The position numbers and the translations under genes are program-made. A stretch of 8,384 nt of DNA from Anaerolineales bacterium (GTDB lineage Bacteria > Chloroflexota > Anaerolineae > Anaerolineales > Villigracilaceae): assembly GCA_016928525.1 (NCBI GenBank), contig JAFGKO010000264.1:1-8384 (forward strand), read 5' to 3'. The notes beneath the pieces are model-generated. The model saw only the letters and a list, made by a program, of their open reading frames with translations, had not been told where the DNA came from and did no database searches. Positions within the stretch are counted from its first letter, which is position 1, and each line of letters opens with the position of its first letter. This document shows, piece after piece, positions 2,919 to 8,384 of the stretch.

Positions 2919-5900
2919 ATGCCGCCTTCGCTGCGAGTTAATCTTTCTGATCCAGCCAAACCGGACACAGATAATCGACTGAGTGACTTTGCGCGCCGCT
3001 TAGCCAAAACCCACGCAGTGGATGCGGTCCCGCCGCCCGCACGGAACTCAGCAGGAATATCCCACCACCCAAAACCTGATCTGCTGGAACAGATGGAAAT
3101 CTGGGAAAAGACTTTGCGTAGTGCCAATGCAATCTTCAAGGCTGTCCCATCCAATGATCTGCCAGTTTCCCGCGCGGGCGAATGGATGTTGGATAATTTT
3201 TATGTTGTCAAACAGACCTTCCGCCAGATTGAAGAAAACTTGCCAGCCAGCTTTCTCAACCAATTGCCAAAACTGGCTGGAACTCCGTTGCGGGGTAGTC
3301 TTGGTTCTAGCGCAGGACAAGGATACCCTCGCCCCGTGCAGGAACCGGGACTACCTCGCATTTTTGCGCTGGCGTGGGAATGGATTGGATATAGCCAGAG
3401 CCAGCTTGACCTGACTCAAACCGCCGCTTTTATGCGGGATTACCAGCAGGTTACGCCCCTGAAGATTGGGGAACTGTGGGCATTGCCCAGCATGCTGCGT
3501 ATCGGGATTTTGGAGAGGCTGGTTTATGCTGCCGTGGAATTGACCGGGATGGATGTGCCGGAAGGCTTGAGCGAAATCCCGAGCCAGTTCGCTTCTCCAG
3601 CGCTGGCGAACGAGACCATTGTAGCCAACTGTTTCCTCAGCCTGCGATTGCTCTCCACCGCGGATTGGGAAGCCTTTTTTGAGCAGACCAGTCGGGTGGA
3701 ACAGATTTTGCGCGATGATCCCGCGGGGATTTACACTCGCATGGATTTTGACACTCGCAACAGCTATCGCAATGTTGTCGAGGAATTTGCCCGTTACTCA
3801 CCCTTCAGTGAAGAAGATGTCGCGCTCGCCGCAGTAGAACTCGCTCGCAGCACAGGGAGCAAGGCCTCAGGGCGGCAAATGCATGTCGGCTTTTATCTAC
3901 AGGATGCGGGGCGTTTGACGCTCGAAGCCAGCGTCCGCTACCAGCCTGGATTCAACCTCCGCATCCGCCGTGCGCTGCTCGCAGTCCCCACCCTCACATA
4001 TCTGGGGAGTATCGCCATCCTTTCGTTACTGTTTATGGTGGGGATACTTACCTACGCCTTGCTTTCGGGCGGTTCGCTTGTCCAACTCATCCTCACAGGT
4101 CTGCTTGGGATTGGATTGGCTTTAGAGGCCGCCATTACACTCGTGAACTGGAATGTTACCCATCGTATCAAACCACAGAGCCTGCCGCGTATGGATTTTT
4201 CAGATGGTATCCCGCCGGGCAATCGCACAATGGTGGTTGTTCCGTGTTTGCTTGAGGGGTCCAATGAACTTAACCACCTCCTGCAAGAGTTGGAACTTTA
4301 TTATCTGTCCAACCCCGACCCGCAACTGACCTTTGCTCTGCTGACCGATTTTGGGGATGCCCTGGCACAGGACATGCCGGAGGATGAACAACTCATCGCG
4401 TTGGCAAGGGCTGGTATCGAAAATCTCAATAAAAAATACGCAAGCACCGTTCCCTTCTATCTATTCCACCGTCAGCGTCAATGGAATCCGTCCGAAGGGG
4501 TCTGGATGGGCTGGGAACGCAAGCGCGGCAAACTGGCGGATTTCAATCGCCTGTTGCTGAACCTGCGGGTTGATTCCCCCGCTGCGCTTCGGGAAACAGC
4601 CTACACCACCCAGGTTGGGGACGTGAGCGTTTTGGCGGATGTCAAATATGTGATCACGCTGGATGCAGATACTTCCCTTCCGCAGGGCAGCGCTAATCGT
4701 CTAATTGCTACATTGGCACACCCACTGAACCACGCTGAATTTGCCCCGGACGGGCGCTCGGTGGTTGCCGGTTATACCGTGCTGCAACCACGCGTGGCCA
4801 TCAAGCCAACCAGCGCGAACCGTTCCCCCTTTTCGCAAATTTTTGCCACGAATACTGGTTTTGACCTGTACTCCTTTGCCGTTTCGGATGTGTACCAGGA
4901 TTTGTTTGGCGAAGGCAGTTACGTTGGCAAGGGGATTTACGATGTCGCCGCGTTTGAGCGCAGCCTGGCGGGACAAGTACGCCAGAATACCTTACTCAGC
5001 CACGATCTGTTTGAAGGAATTTATGGACGCGCGGCGCTCGTCACGGACATCCTACTATACGAGGAATATCCGTCGCGTTACCTCATCTACGCCCATCGAC
5101 TGCGCCGCTGGATCCGCGGCGACTGGCAGTTGCTACCCTGGCTGTTCCCCACCGTCCGCACAAAAAGCGGGATGGCACCCAACCGTCTTTCGATTATCAA
5201 CCGCTGGAAAATTTTCGATAATCTGCGGCGTAGCCTGATGCCGGCAAATTTAATTACCTTGCTCGCCGCAGGTTGGCTGTACTTTCCTGGTTCGCCCCTG
5301 GTCTGGACTCTGCTGGTACTGCTGCCTTCCGCCCTGCCCATCGCGGTGCAAGCTGTGCAGGGTGGCAAGCACAACCTGGAACGGTTAACGCTCAAACGGT
5401 TTCTCAATCCAATCCGGCCTCCGCTCATACGCTGGGCGCTATCCATTCTCTTTTTGCCCTATGAAGCTTTACTCGCCTTGAGTGCCATCGGTGTAACGAT
5501 TGCCCGCATGTTCATCTTTCACAAACACATGTTGCAATGGACAACCGCAGCCAGGGCTGCGCGTTCTCTTAGATTGAACTCGCGTTACTCAACCTGGGCC
5601 GAAATGGGGTTTTCTTCTTTCTTAAGCATTTTGCTGGGCGTCATGGTCGCCATTTTCAACCCAACTGCGCTATGGGTGGCGCTGCCCATATTGGTGGCCT
5701 GGTTGATGGCTCCGCAAATCGCTTACCAGATTAGCCAATCGGTGACACATACCCCCACGCCGCTCAAGGAGACTCAACGCAGACAAGTCCTGCGCCTGGC
5801 GCGCCGCACCTGGGCATTTTTTGAGCAGTTTGCCGGACCCAATGACCACTGGCTGCCTCCAGATCATTTTCAAGCATCACCGCGTGGCAGTGTGGCCCAT

Positions 5901-8384
5901 TACACTACGCCAACCAACATCGGCCTGTTCCTGGTGTCTACCTTATCGGCGTTTGATTTGGGCTATATTGGCTTGCTTGAATTAGCGTTCCGCCTGCGCT
6001 CTACCTTTGAGAGCATGGAAAAGATGGAACATTACCGGGGACATCTGATGAACTGGTACGACTCACAAACTCTGGCTGCGCTCCCGCCCCGTTACGTTTC
6101 CACGGTGGATAGCGGCAACCTGGCGGCTTGCCTGGTCACGCTTAGACAGGGCTGTCTCGCCCTGAAAAATGCGCCGCTTCTGGATGACAAGCAGTGGCAG
6201 GGTCTGCTTGTCCTTCTGGATATTTTGGCAGAAGTGCTGCAAGCGCTGGAAAAAAACAACCCACACGCCTCCGAGGTAGTCCCGGTTTCAGCACGGGAGA
6301 TTGAATCTTTTGAAGTCGAATTGACAAGTATTTATGAACGCGTCAGCGGCGTCCAGAACCAGCCGTCAGAATGGAAAAAGACTCTCGACTGGCTCTCAGG
6401 GGAAGGATGGGAAAGAGTCTCGCATCGATTGATGGAGTTGCTCGAGAGTCATCCCCATCTCCAGCGCGAAGCCCTGACCGAACTCCAACTCTATCTGGAT
6501 TTGATGTACCAGCACCTGCAAGACATGCAACGCAGCCTGGATTTGTTCGCGCCCTGGCTCAAGCGCCTGGATGCGCCCACCGAGCTAATCATGCAAACGC
6601 CCGCCTGGCAAGATTTTCGCAACACCCTGCTTGCTGAACGGCCGACACTAGGACAGGCAACGGAGGTTTATGAGCGCATCAAAATCGCTTTGGCTCATTT
6701 CAAGGCCCAACTCCTGGATGATCAAATTCCGGATCCGGCATGGAATGAAACCGCGCGTGACTGGTGTCAAAAACTGGAGGCTGATTTATCGTCAGCTCAC
6801 ATGACGATTGCGCCCCTGCTGATCGGTTTTCAAGAATTGGCAGCACAGGCGGACGCTGCAATCTCTGCAATGGATTTCCGCTTTTTGTTCAATGAGCATC
6901 GCCAGTTGTTCCACATCGGCTATACCCCCAGTGCCGAGCGGCTCGACCCGAGTTACTACGATTTGCTGGCCTCCGAATCCCGCATTGCCAGCCTGATTGC
7001 AATTGCCAAAAGGGATGTGCCGCAAAGTCACTGGCAGCACTTGGGGCGGCCGGTGACGGAAGTCAACGGCAAGCAGGTATTGCTCTCATGGAGCGGCACC
7101 ATGTTCGAATATCTCATGCCGACATTGTTTGCCAAAAGCTACGCCGGGACCTTCCTCTCGGATAGCTGTTACGCCGCGATCGATGCACAGAGAAGTTACG
7201 GGCAGGAGCAGCAAATGCCCTGGGGCATCTCGGAATCGGGCTACTATGCTTTCGATCTCGACCAGCACTACCAGTACCGCGCTTTTGGTGTACCTACCCT
7301 GGGCTACAAACGCGACTTGCCAGATGATCTGGTGATTGCGCCATACGCCTCTCTGATGGGGCTGTCACTGCAACCGCAGGCAGTACTGGAAAACATGGCA
7401 CGCCTGGAAAAGTTGAACATGCTCGGGCGTTTTGGTTTTTACGAGGCGCTTGATTACACAAAAGCACGCATCCCGGAAAAGCACCGGGATGATATACCAG
7501 CCGGTCAGGCACATGCCATCGTGCAATCCTACATGGCACATCACCAGGGCATGATTCTGCTGGCGGCTTGCAACTTCCTGTTGGATGATGTCATGGTAGA
7601 GCGTTTCCACGCCGATGAGCACATCCAGAGCGTGGAACTTCTGCTCCAGGAAAAGATTCCGCAAAACCCGCCTCTTGAATTTCCCCACACCGACGAACCG
7701 GTGGATTTGGACGAGGTCGTGCGCTGGGTCAATAGTGCGCCCTGGCGCGTGCCAGCCGATAGTCCCATCCCGCAGGCGCATGTGCTTTCACAAGGTGATA
7801 CCAGCGTGATGATCACCAACGCGGGCGGCGGATTCAGCCAGTGGCGCGAGTTCGCGTTGACGCGCTGGCATGCCGACAGCACGCTCGACCAGTGGGGCAC
7901 ATGGATTTATTTGCAGGACCGCGAGAGCGGCGCGCTCTGGTCAGCCACCTGCCAGCCGATTGTAAGCGAACTGGAGTATCTGGAGAACAAAATTCCAGTA
8001 CGGGATCAAGAAGTTTGGTTTTACCCTCACAAAGTCGAGTTCCAGCGTTCCGACAATGGCATTACCCTGCGCACCGGGATCACCGTCAGCGTGGATGGCG
8101 TCGAGATCCGGCGGGTGAACATCCTGAATAACAGCGACCGCCCTCGAAAACTAAAATTGACCAGTTATGGCGAAGTAGTCTTGGCGGCGCAGGCAGCCGA
8201 CCGGCGTCATCCGGCTTTCAACAAACTTTTTATCGAGAGCGAATATCTCCCCAAAGAGAATGCGCTCCTGTTCCAGCGCCGACCGCGCTCCGCGGACGAA
8301 AAGCCGGTCGTGCTGATCCATGCCATGCTCATCGAAGCCGGGCGCAAAGTCACCGGCGACCACGAAACCGACCGCGCCCAATTC
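2919..8384 (+). CDS. Cyclic beta-1,2-glucan synthase (NdvB/ChvB/Cgs type), 3' end outside window
   Basis: A multi-domain inner-membrane enzyme that polymerises glucose from UDP-glucose into beta-1,2-glucan, closes the ring and trims chain length. 1822 codons are present without a stop; known family members have about 2800 residues. Order: N-terminal domain (about 20-340, including LPSMLRIGILERL); two membrane helices (about 355-410); GT84 glycosyltransferase (about 435-740) with D582-A-D584, D696 in HDLFEG and the R727xxRW731-IRGDWQ motif; about four membrane helices (777-807, 838-862, 898-935); a helical linker; glycoamylase-like cyclisation domain (about 1325-1580) with SGTMFE1397YLMP, PWGISE1439SGYY and AHHQGM (1540-1545); then the GH94 beta-sandwich start (SVMITNAGGGFSQW, from about 1627). 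The GH94 catalytic barrel lies beyond the edge. No strong ribosome binding site precedes ATG 2919, so coupling to the Usp gene is likely. Residues 127-144 look like a foreign in-frame insert. Confidence 0.95.
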   Translation, partial: MPPSLRVNLSDPAKPDTDNRLSDFARRLAKTHAVDAVPPPARNSAGISHHPKPDLLEQMEIWEKTLRSANAIFKAVPSNDLPVSRAGEWMLDNFYVVKQTFRQIEENLPASFLNQLPKLAGTPLRGSLGSSAGQGYPRPVQEPGLPRIFALAWEWIGYSQSQLDLTQTAAFMRDYQQVTPLKIGELWALPSMLRIGILERLVYAAVELTGMDVPEGLSEIPSQFASPALANETIVANCFLSLRLLSTADWEAFFEQTSRVEQILRDDPAGIYTRMDFDTRNSYRNVVEEFARYSPFSEEDVALAAVELARSTGSKASGRQMHVGFYLQDAGRLTLEASVRYQPGFNLRIRRALLAVPTLTYLGSIAILSLLFMVGILTYALLSGGSLVQLILTGLLGIGLALEAAITLVNWNVTHRIKPQSLPRMDFSDGIPPGNRTMVVVPCLLEGSNELNHLLQELELYYLSNPDPQLTFALLTDFGDALAQDMPEDEQLIALARAGIENLNKKYASTVPFYLFHRQRQWNPSEGVWMGWERKRGKLADFNRLLLNLRVDSPAALRETAYTTQVGDVSVLADVKYVITLDADTSLPQGSANRLIATLAHPLNHAEFAPDGRSVVAGYTVLQPRVAIKPTSANRSPFSQIFATNTGFDLYSFAVSDVYQDLFGEGSYVGKGIYDVAAFERSLAGQVRQNTLLSHDLFEGIYGRAALVTDILLYEEYPSRYLIYAHRLRRWIRGDWQLLPWLFPTVRTKSGMAPNRLSIINRWKIFDNLRRSLMPANLITLLAAGWLYFPGSPLVWTLLVLLPSALPIAVQAVQGGKHNLERLTLKRFLNPIRPPLIRWALSILFLPYEALLALSAIGVTIARMFIFHKHMLQWTTAARAARSLRLNSRYSTWAEMGFSSFLSILLGVMVAIFNPTALWVALPILVAWLMAPQIAYQISQSVTHTPTPLKETQRRQVLRLARRTWAFFEQFAGPNDHWLPPDHFQASPRGSVAHYTTPTNIGLFLVSTLSAFDLGYIGLLELAFRLRSTFESMEKMEHYRGHLMNWYDSQTLAALPPRYVSTVDSGNLAACLVTLRQGCLALKNAPLLDDKQWQGLLVLLDILAEVLQALEKNNPHASEVVPVSAREIESFEVELTSIYERVSGVQNQPSEWKKTLDWLSGEGWERVSHRLMELLESHPHLQREALTELQLYLDLMYQHLQDMQRSLDLFAPWLKRLDAPTELIMQTPAWQDFRNTLLAERPTLGQATEVYERIKIALAHFKAQLLDDQIPDPAWNETARDWCQKLEADLSSAHMTIAPLLIGFQELAAQADAAISAMDFRFLFNEHRQLFHIGYTPSAERLDPSYYDLLASESRIASLIAIAKRDVPQSHWQHLGRPVTEVNGKQVLLSWSGTMFEYLMPTLFAKSYAGTFLSDSCYAAIDAQRSYGQEQQMPWGISESGYYAFDLDQHYQYRAFGVPTLGYKRDLPDDLVIAPYASLMGLSLQPQAVLENMARLEKLNMLGRFGFYEALDYTKARIPEKHRDDIPAGQAHAIVQSYMAHHQGMILLAACNFLLDDVMVERFHADEHIQSVELLLQEKIPQNPPLEFPHTDEPVDLDEVVRWVNSAPWRVPADSPIPQAHVLSQGDTSVMITNAGGGFSQWREFALTRWHADSTLDQWGTWIYLQDRESGALWSATCQPIVSELEYLENKIPVRDQEVWFYPHKVEFQRSDNGITLRTGITVSVDGVEIRRVNILNNSDRPRKLKLTSYGEVVLAAQAADRRHPAFNKLFIESEYLPKENALLFQRRPRSADEKPVVLIHAMLIEAGRKVTGDHETDRAQF
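3289..3360 (+). repeat. 72-bp near-palindromic element inserted in frame in the glucan synthase
   Basis: The arms TGCGGGGTAGTC (3289-3300) and GACTACCTCGCA (3349-3360) pair fully if one G-T is allowed. The stem continues inward through two T-G pairs to GGTTC (3303-3307) with GAACC (3342-3346), giving about 19 to 20 bp closed by a loop of about 32 bases. In the protein it encodes SLGSSAGQGYPRPVQEPG (residues 127-144) between PLRG and LPRIFALAWEW. From memory of the family, these flanks normally join directly (a PLxG-YPR-type turn). The length is a multiple of three. A partial inverted copy is at 6272-6297. Confidence 0.6.
6272..6297 (-). repeat. Partial inverted copy of the 3289-3360 element
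   Basis: CGAGGTAGTCCCGGTT (6272-6287) is identical to the reverse complement of 3343-3358. After three bases with one match, GCACGGG (6291-6297) equals the reverse complement of 3333-3339, giving 24 of 26 bases identical. Only one arm and part of the loop are present; no matching second arm lies nearby. It encodes EVVPVSAR (1119-1126) in the variable helical linker before the cyclisation domain, where an insertion would be tolerated. Confidence 0.55.

Follow-up and report, generated by a model that had tools for sequence, protein, structure and literature searches.

The hairpin in the cyclic beta-1,2-glucan synthase gene of the window (the whole stretch of Anaerolineales DNA analysed, 8,384 nucleotides) probably represents two insertions of a 27-nt mobile repeat dispersed in the Anaerolineales, which took place independently and in opposite orientation. 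The repeat has the consensus GNGGTAGTCCCGGTTCCNGCACGGGRC; the reading that fits best is a very small mobile element that is non-autonomous and, by its length, frame-neutral.

Two oppositely oriented repeat copies in a glucan synthase gene

The host gene, the hairpin and the three repeat copies in the window are as follows.

2919..8384, plus strand: host gene, cyclic beta-1,2-glucan synthase, running off the window end
3289..3360, plus strand: hairpin in which the left copy pairs with the oppositely oriented right copy; 20-pair outer helix
3292..3318, plus strand: left copy of the 27-bp repeat, 20/27 identical to the consensus; residues 125-134 (RGSLGSSAGQ); junction C^AAGG
3331..3357, minus strand: right copy of the 27-bp repeat, 25/27 identical to the consensus; residues 138-147 (RPVQEPGLPR); minus-strand junction C^GAGG
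6273..6299, plus strand: third copy of the 27-bp repeat, 23/27; same gene, other frame; residues 1119-1127 (EVVPVSARE); junction C^ATTG

The sequence-only reading of this DNA had described a stem-loop lying within an open frame, and this was borne out. The region 3275-3375 had a folding energy of -54.4 kcal/mol (z -5.05), and none of 200 shuffles folded equally well. The outer helix (3289-3308 with 3341-3360) consists of 20 consecutive pairs, 16 of them Watson-Crick and four G-U, the latter indicating that the arms have diverged at the DNA level. The synthase ORF, which starts at 2919 and has at least 1822 codons, stays open across the hairpin. The arms were absent from the output of a repeat finder using 9-base exact seeds, and a search of Rfam with positions 3000-3700 gave four matches up to an E value of 10, none at its gathering score.

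The same reading had taken the feature for a single 72-bp palindromic element inserted in frame, possibly a dispersed repeat, and had named the Rickettsia palindromic elements (RPEs) as a precedent. The in-frame insertion, the dispersed nature of the repeat and the precedent, which is a fair one, stood, but a 72-bp palindrome is not the unit that was inserted: two insertions of nine residues each, at 3292-3318 and 3331-3357, make up the 18 extra residues. Read in repeat orientation, the left and right copies are identical at 19 of 27 positions and are separated by 12 bp, and the third copy matches the right copy at 23 of 27. The junctions of the left and right copies could be read from the sequence, and the right copy bears a full 6-bp direct repeat (GCGAGG at both ends). 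Among neighbouring copies within 100 bp of each other in the repeat-bearing loci L001-L101, drawn mostly from two assemblies, 155 of 156 pairs were head-to-tail and one was inverted. The window palindrome is therefore best read as the chance product of two oppositely oriented insertions.

A search found 2056 synthase homologues, and the window was aligned with 120 listed of these (121 rows). The result showed that the hairpin site holds 39 residues in 78 of the 121 rows, 48 in 13 rows and 57 in the window, so that the shorter form is the common one; this confirms the insertion proposed from the sequence, as does the solved Agrobacterium synthase (8rf0), in which 19 residues are missing at the window insert. 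Among close homologues, P0001 carries only the right-copy peptide and P0004 only the left-copy peptide at this site, and P0037 has a long tandem run there. At the site of the third copy, 88 of 121 rows have 32 residues, and the window, P0011 and P0032 have 41. The complete alignment contained 50 repeat-coded peptide stretches, three of them rows of one P0037 segment, in about ten regions in different homologues. Relative to the commonest length, 23 of the 50 were longer by exactly 9 residues and 32 by a multiple of 9, compared with 144 and 148, respectively, of 618 control segments without the repeat peptide, taken from overlapping windows; the 144 control segments differing by exactly 9 are perhaps decayed copies. 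In an AF2 model of the synthase (19 sequences, mean pLDDT 70), residues 113-144, which cover the left insert and extend into the right one, had pLDDT values below 50 and were placed between helices.

The synthase N-terminus had matches in six of 13 carrier genomes, and in none of the related assemblies G001 and G002. Among the six, the repeat was present in the fetched loci only in G334, whose synthase has an empty window site and two tandem copies about 80 residues further on.

Elsewhere in the window, a gene for a PIN-family toxin (TIGR00305) lies at 765-1624 on the minus strand, together with a small ORF upstream of it (1193-1624), for which no family match was found; the two are a possible toxin-antitoxin pair. 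An inverted repeat of 14 bp (93%), its arms 2 nt apart, is located at 1877-1906, just upstream of a universal stress protein gene at 1944.

Distribution, boundaries and junctions of the repeat

An exact pattern scan with 21 fixed letters in a collection of 84,980 species' genomes returned 101 stretches, and all 101 titles were Chloroflexi or Anaerolineae, Anaerolineales or Anaerolineaceae. With up to three mismatches allowed, eight carrier genomes contained 214, 89, 16, 4, 16, 2, 4 and 13 matches, and the reversed-pattern control gave none in each of them. In 400 sampled genomes of the order, matches with up to two mismatches were found in 19, eight of which had three or more: 314 in G001, 130 in G003, 120 in G002, 19 in G347, 15 in G008, 7 in G334, 4 in G004 and 3 in G308. 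The 11 genomes with one or two matches are near chance level, since 14 of the 400 matched the reversed pattern once. All genomes carrying the repeat are draft assemblies. The earlier suggestion of a dispersed, protein-invading repeat of this lineage thus held, for the 27-bp repeat is spread in Anaerolineales genomes and proteins. The exact repeat was not found in viral contigs, nor its tandem consensus in plasmids. A literature search with subscription journals mostly outside its scope found neither an in-frame palindromic repeat insertion into Chloroflexi proteins nor a 27-bp Anaerolineales repeat. On RAYTs in Chloroflexi, PMC3733652 and PMC6006769 appeared pertinent among the 20 papers listed of 43.

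The logo of the repeat copies shows a clearly bounded unit with the tetranucleotide GTAG at one end. In 151 copies the head had frequencies of 0.98 for T, 0.92 for A and 0.94 for G, which are partly so by construction because these letters lie inside the search pattern; G at -1, outside the pattern, reached 0.88 in 123 isolated copies and 0.77 in the 151. C occupied position 22 in 90 of the 123 isolated copies and G position 26 in 96, with both present in 76, and pyrimidines were favoured at -9 to -7. Matches across the junction in the 151 copies exceeded expectation at -6/21 (66 versus 43.2) and -5/22 (91 versus 68.2). When a 6-bp target-site duplication was considered, the excess over expectation lay mainly at the RC positions, and this candidate was not retained. 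Full 6-bp direct repeats are nevertheless present in two of the 151 copies, at the L069 site and at the right window copy, so some target duplication is conceivable. A MITE was rejected, as by eye the logo has no terminal inverted repeat, the junction excess falls mainly at two positions and the 6-bp repeat occurs in two of 151 copies.

Head-to-tail spacings were dominated by 20 bp (65) and 27 bp (44), and steps of 20, 24, 25 and 28 bp occur besides 27. In the arrays at L012, L023, L031, L066 and L088, 7-10-bp ACGGGGC/ACGGGAC repeats often form the end, and some repeat copies have a second motif (ATATCATCCCGAATCTC) attached.

Comparison of G001 and G002 allowed presence and absence to be read at individual sites. 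Of 267 copies flanked within the parts of G001 and G002 that were covered, 68 had both flanks mapped in the other assembly; a site visible from both assemblies can count twice in these numbers, and the polarity of each indel is presumptive. The spacing was the same for 22 copies, and for 19 the other assembly was shorter by exactly 27 bp; it was shorter by 25 bp for four, 28 bp for two and 24 bp for one, and the remaining 20 showed other differences, many in tandem number. Inspection of the 19 differences of 27 bp showed 12 clean single sites, six changes in tandem number and one poorly aligned case (L046_206). At the best cut, nine of the 12 clean sites read C^NNNG, and L027, L048 and L080 had no plain C^NNNG. 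At L030, L071 and L092 the base left of the junction C is that of the target and its right-hand counterpart is that of the element. By context, 10 of the 19 are in frame, five are noncoding, two have one coding flank and two are of other kinds; among the four 25-bp differences, three are noncoding and one has a stop.

Copies within genes and proteins

The gene context of 197 arrays in L001-L101 was assigned with a home-made codon model trained on 180 long ORFs. The results showed 47 arrays in frame, one in phase with a stop, six on the same strand but shifted, 13 between opposite strands, 53 with one side and 54 with both sides noncoding, and 23 at edges; five of the 47 in-frame assignments depend on a single copy that has four mismatches, and in-frame calls exclude stop frames by definition. 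In-frame arrays made up 47 of the 174 non-edge arrays (27%) compared with 43% of random positions, and arrays with both flanks noncoding made up 54 of 174 compared with 12.8% at random. Seven of the 54 same-strand coding arrays were shifted or stopped, a higher share than at random; of all random positions, 2.3% were shifted. Taken together, these results indicate that genes are avoided relative to chance and that the insertions in genes are mostly frame-keeping. For 29 single copies with up to three mismatches, the frames were used 15, 6, 3, 3 and 2 times, stop frames again being excluded by definition.

Twenty host ORFs from the 47 in-frame arrays were compared with Pfam, and 18 matched families, including PheT, MutS2, PEP synthase, HypF, ValS and response regulator. 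The repeat lies within the matched domain in five (L022, L038, L060, L069 and L095), and in L093 it lies within a match below the Pfam cut-off. Alignment of the GMP synthase at L088 with the solved structure 5tw7 showed a gap of exactly 9 residues, an insert common to G001 and G002 (L066 and L088), and the PcrA helicase at L055 has 18 extra residues relative to 1pjr. In-frame insertion in conserved proteins, here GMP synthase, PcrA and others, is a feature that the repeat shares with RPEs.

Possible origin of the repeat and its relation to known systems

We tentatively suggest that the repeat may belong to a distinct class of mobile DNA: 27 nt long, far below the usual size of transposable elements, with no tie to a RAYT, inserting at C^NNNG by a putative enzyme and frame-neutral, so that core proteins such as GMP synthase and PcrA helicase would have been lengthened repeatedly in nine-residue steps across the lineages of the order. 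A putative enzyme acting in trans would insert the 27-bp unit; it is perhaps of the single-strand HUH type, as suggested by the GTAG head and the C| junction, and we infer the strand on which it would act. The repeat would survive inside genes because 27 is divisible by three and only one of its six frames contains a stop. Selection would remove insertions in the stop frame and those whose length is not a multiple of three, and the survivors would sit in loops, probably near neutral. Head-to-tail arrays may come from re-insertion or slippage.

IS200/IS605 elements insert 3' of a fixed short target by a Y1 enzyme, with no duplication. The C^NNNG found at nine of 12 clean sites fits this, but repeat orientation relative to GC skew showed no strand bias in the short contigs available (60/115, p about 0.49; 34/57, p about 0.25), which counts against a replication-coupled single-strand mechanism because that mechanism predicts a bias. 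None of 53 Y1 loci in these incomplete drafts (all 23 in the eight carriers and 30 of 48 in 13 other genomes) was flanked on both sides by the repeat.

Long Y1 proteins, present in many carriers, were considered as a transposase and set aside, those inspected being composed of a receiver-like part and a Y1 domain without a visible HUH motif. Proteins of this kind, about 510-630 residues long, are encoded at L148:1204-2808 (-) and L149:298-1887 (+) and in L135, L137, L138, L140-L142, L144 and L146; their N-terminal half is receiver-like, and they end in a Y1 transposase domain in which, by eye, the HUH motif seems to be missing; they look like domesticated IS200/IS605 transposases. Open frames in L181-L184 and others were judged similar by length only. 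Some long Y1 genes stand beside a polA-like gene, and in two cases a single repeat lies between the two genes. Nearly the same IS200-like TnpA is encoded in G002 (L132:1426-1908) and G001 (L134:1426-1758), two of the three repeat-richest assemblies. Downstream of the G002 gene lies GGTGGTAGT, which is like the 5' part of the repeat, probably by chance.

It is conceivable, if rather doubtful, that the repeat is instead a GTAG-tagged REP family (REP/REPIN) moved by a RAYT that was lost or missed in the drafts, the window hairpin being a REPIN-like dimer. The GTAG head is strongly kept, and a stem of 5-6 bp with a 9-nt loop can be drawn for a single unit, but single-unit folding was unremarkable (z -1.85, -0.33 and 0.41). 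A covariation test of this stem on 378 copies found by the consensus pattern gave three of six pairs slightly above expectation (244 versus 236.8, 337 versus 329.4 and 287 versus 279.8) and three at expectation (348 versus 348.2, 328 versus 326.3 and 324 versus 323.2). Double changes were few, 0-13 of 378 per pair, although at one pair six of seven still pair. The compensatory changes that the sequence-only reading had proposed to look for thus found no clear support in the single-unit stem, and neither folding z nor covariation indicated a palindromic stem-loop behind the GTAG head. CT/CA cleavage sites are known for TnpA-REP from passages of PMC8266576, and passages of PMC3733652 describe intragenic GTAG REPs and GTAG repeats of Chloroflexi, both in favour of such a family; the rarity of inverted pairs speaks against it, as would the absence of a repeat-flanked RAYT among the 53 Y1 loci examined in these incomplete drafts. 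A REPIN was dropped on the head-to-tail pairing, the unremarkable folding and covariation at or only slightly above expectation.

T. roseum is a member of the Chloroflexi. Passages of Di Nocera et al. (2013, PMC3733652) assign it the family GTAG-23, report GTAG repeats in Chloroflexi, name a UvrD/REP helicase among the intragenic cases and state that more than half of the intragenic GTAG REP inserts are dimers or groups encoding 20-30 residues. As described in these passages, and compared by description, not by family consensus sequences, GTAG REPs resemble the Anaerolineales repeat in their GTAG head, their 20-40 bp, high copy number and some copies in genes; the latter differs in having no covariation-backed palindrome, no adjoining RAYT among the 53 loci and a recurrent 27-bp insert. 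REPs are mainly extragenic, which compares with the noncoding and in-frame shares given above (54 and 47 of 174). Passages of Bertels and Rainey (2011, PMC3116915) propose the inverted doublet as the replicating form of REPINs, and the window hairpin resembles such a doublet, but only one of the 156 neighbouring pairs in L001-L101 is inverted. RPEs are palindromes of 105-146 bp in passages of PMC2229807, and passages of PMC3733652 equate RPE-4 and RPE-6 with its short CGTC repeats. Like the RPEs so described, the Anaerolineales repeat is dispersed, in frame in conserved proteins and between genes, but it is 27 bp long, is not clearly palindromic, belongs to an unrelated lineage and carries GTAG, not CGTC. 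The repeat is therefore filed as neither a GTAG REP nor an RPE, though alike in habit, because stem covariation and inverted pairing were not found and no flanking RAYT was seen. It is not a wholly new kind either, since intragenic GTAG REPs (PMC3733652) and in-frame RPEs (PMC2229807) are in print, as passages of these papers show.

The small size of the repeat also has a parallel in another phylum. Elhai et al. reportedly described small dispersed repeats of cyanobacteria in 2008. Passages of PMC2884548 give such repeats as about 20 bp, tandem and possibly mobile; by description, not sequence, the Anaerolineales repeat is likewise very small, dispersed, tandem and possibly mobile, in a different phylum.

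An origin that needs no enzyme, with the unit spread through template switching or microhomology (RC...RC) in the course of replication and through tandem slippage, is unlikely. It would accommodate a shared junction that is mainly C and often R, the excess of matches at -6/21 and -5/22 and the variable tandem spacing of 20, 25 and 27 bp. However, G at +26 and the pyrimidines at -9 to -7, which lie outside the unit, and the recurrence of the 27-bp length where sites are unrelated, favour an enzyme that recognises its site. Very little speaks for a domesticated peptide module, a 9-residue insert under selection for synthase function: the same synthase site has been hit repeatedly in different homologues, but peptides of both orientations occur at the hairpin site, the shorter form prevails in 78 of 121 rows, and the repeat is also found in unrelated proteins and outside genes. 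Chance or assembly artefact, which the draft state of all carriers and single matches near the control rate (14/400) might suggest, is hardly credible overall. For the high-copy genomes the counts refute it (2-214 matches in eight carriers versus 0 for the reversed control), and independent assemblies, like proteins of several databases, contain the same repeat.

Protein-invading repeats are known from Rickettsia, Wolbachia, enterobacteria and scattered REP cases, as passages of PMC2229807 and PMC3733652 relate. In the Anaerolineales the usual unit length is nine codons even outside genes, presence/absence pairs reveal both the target and the junction, and about ten regions have been invaded in different homologues of a single gene family. 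The repeat, read as a very small mobile element, therefore amounts to a natural insertion-scanning experiment on conserved enzymes, and it offers a clear system for asking how elements shorter than 30 nt move.
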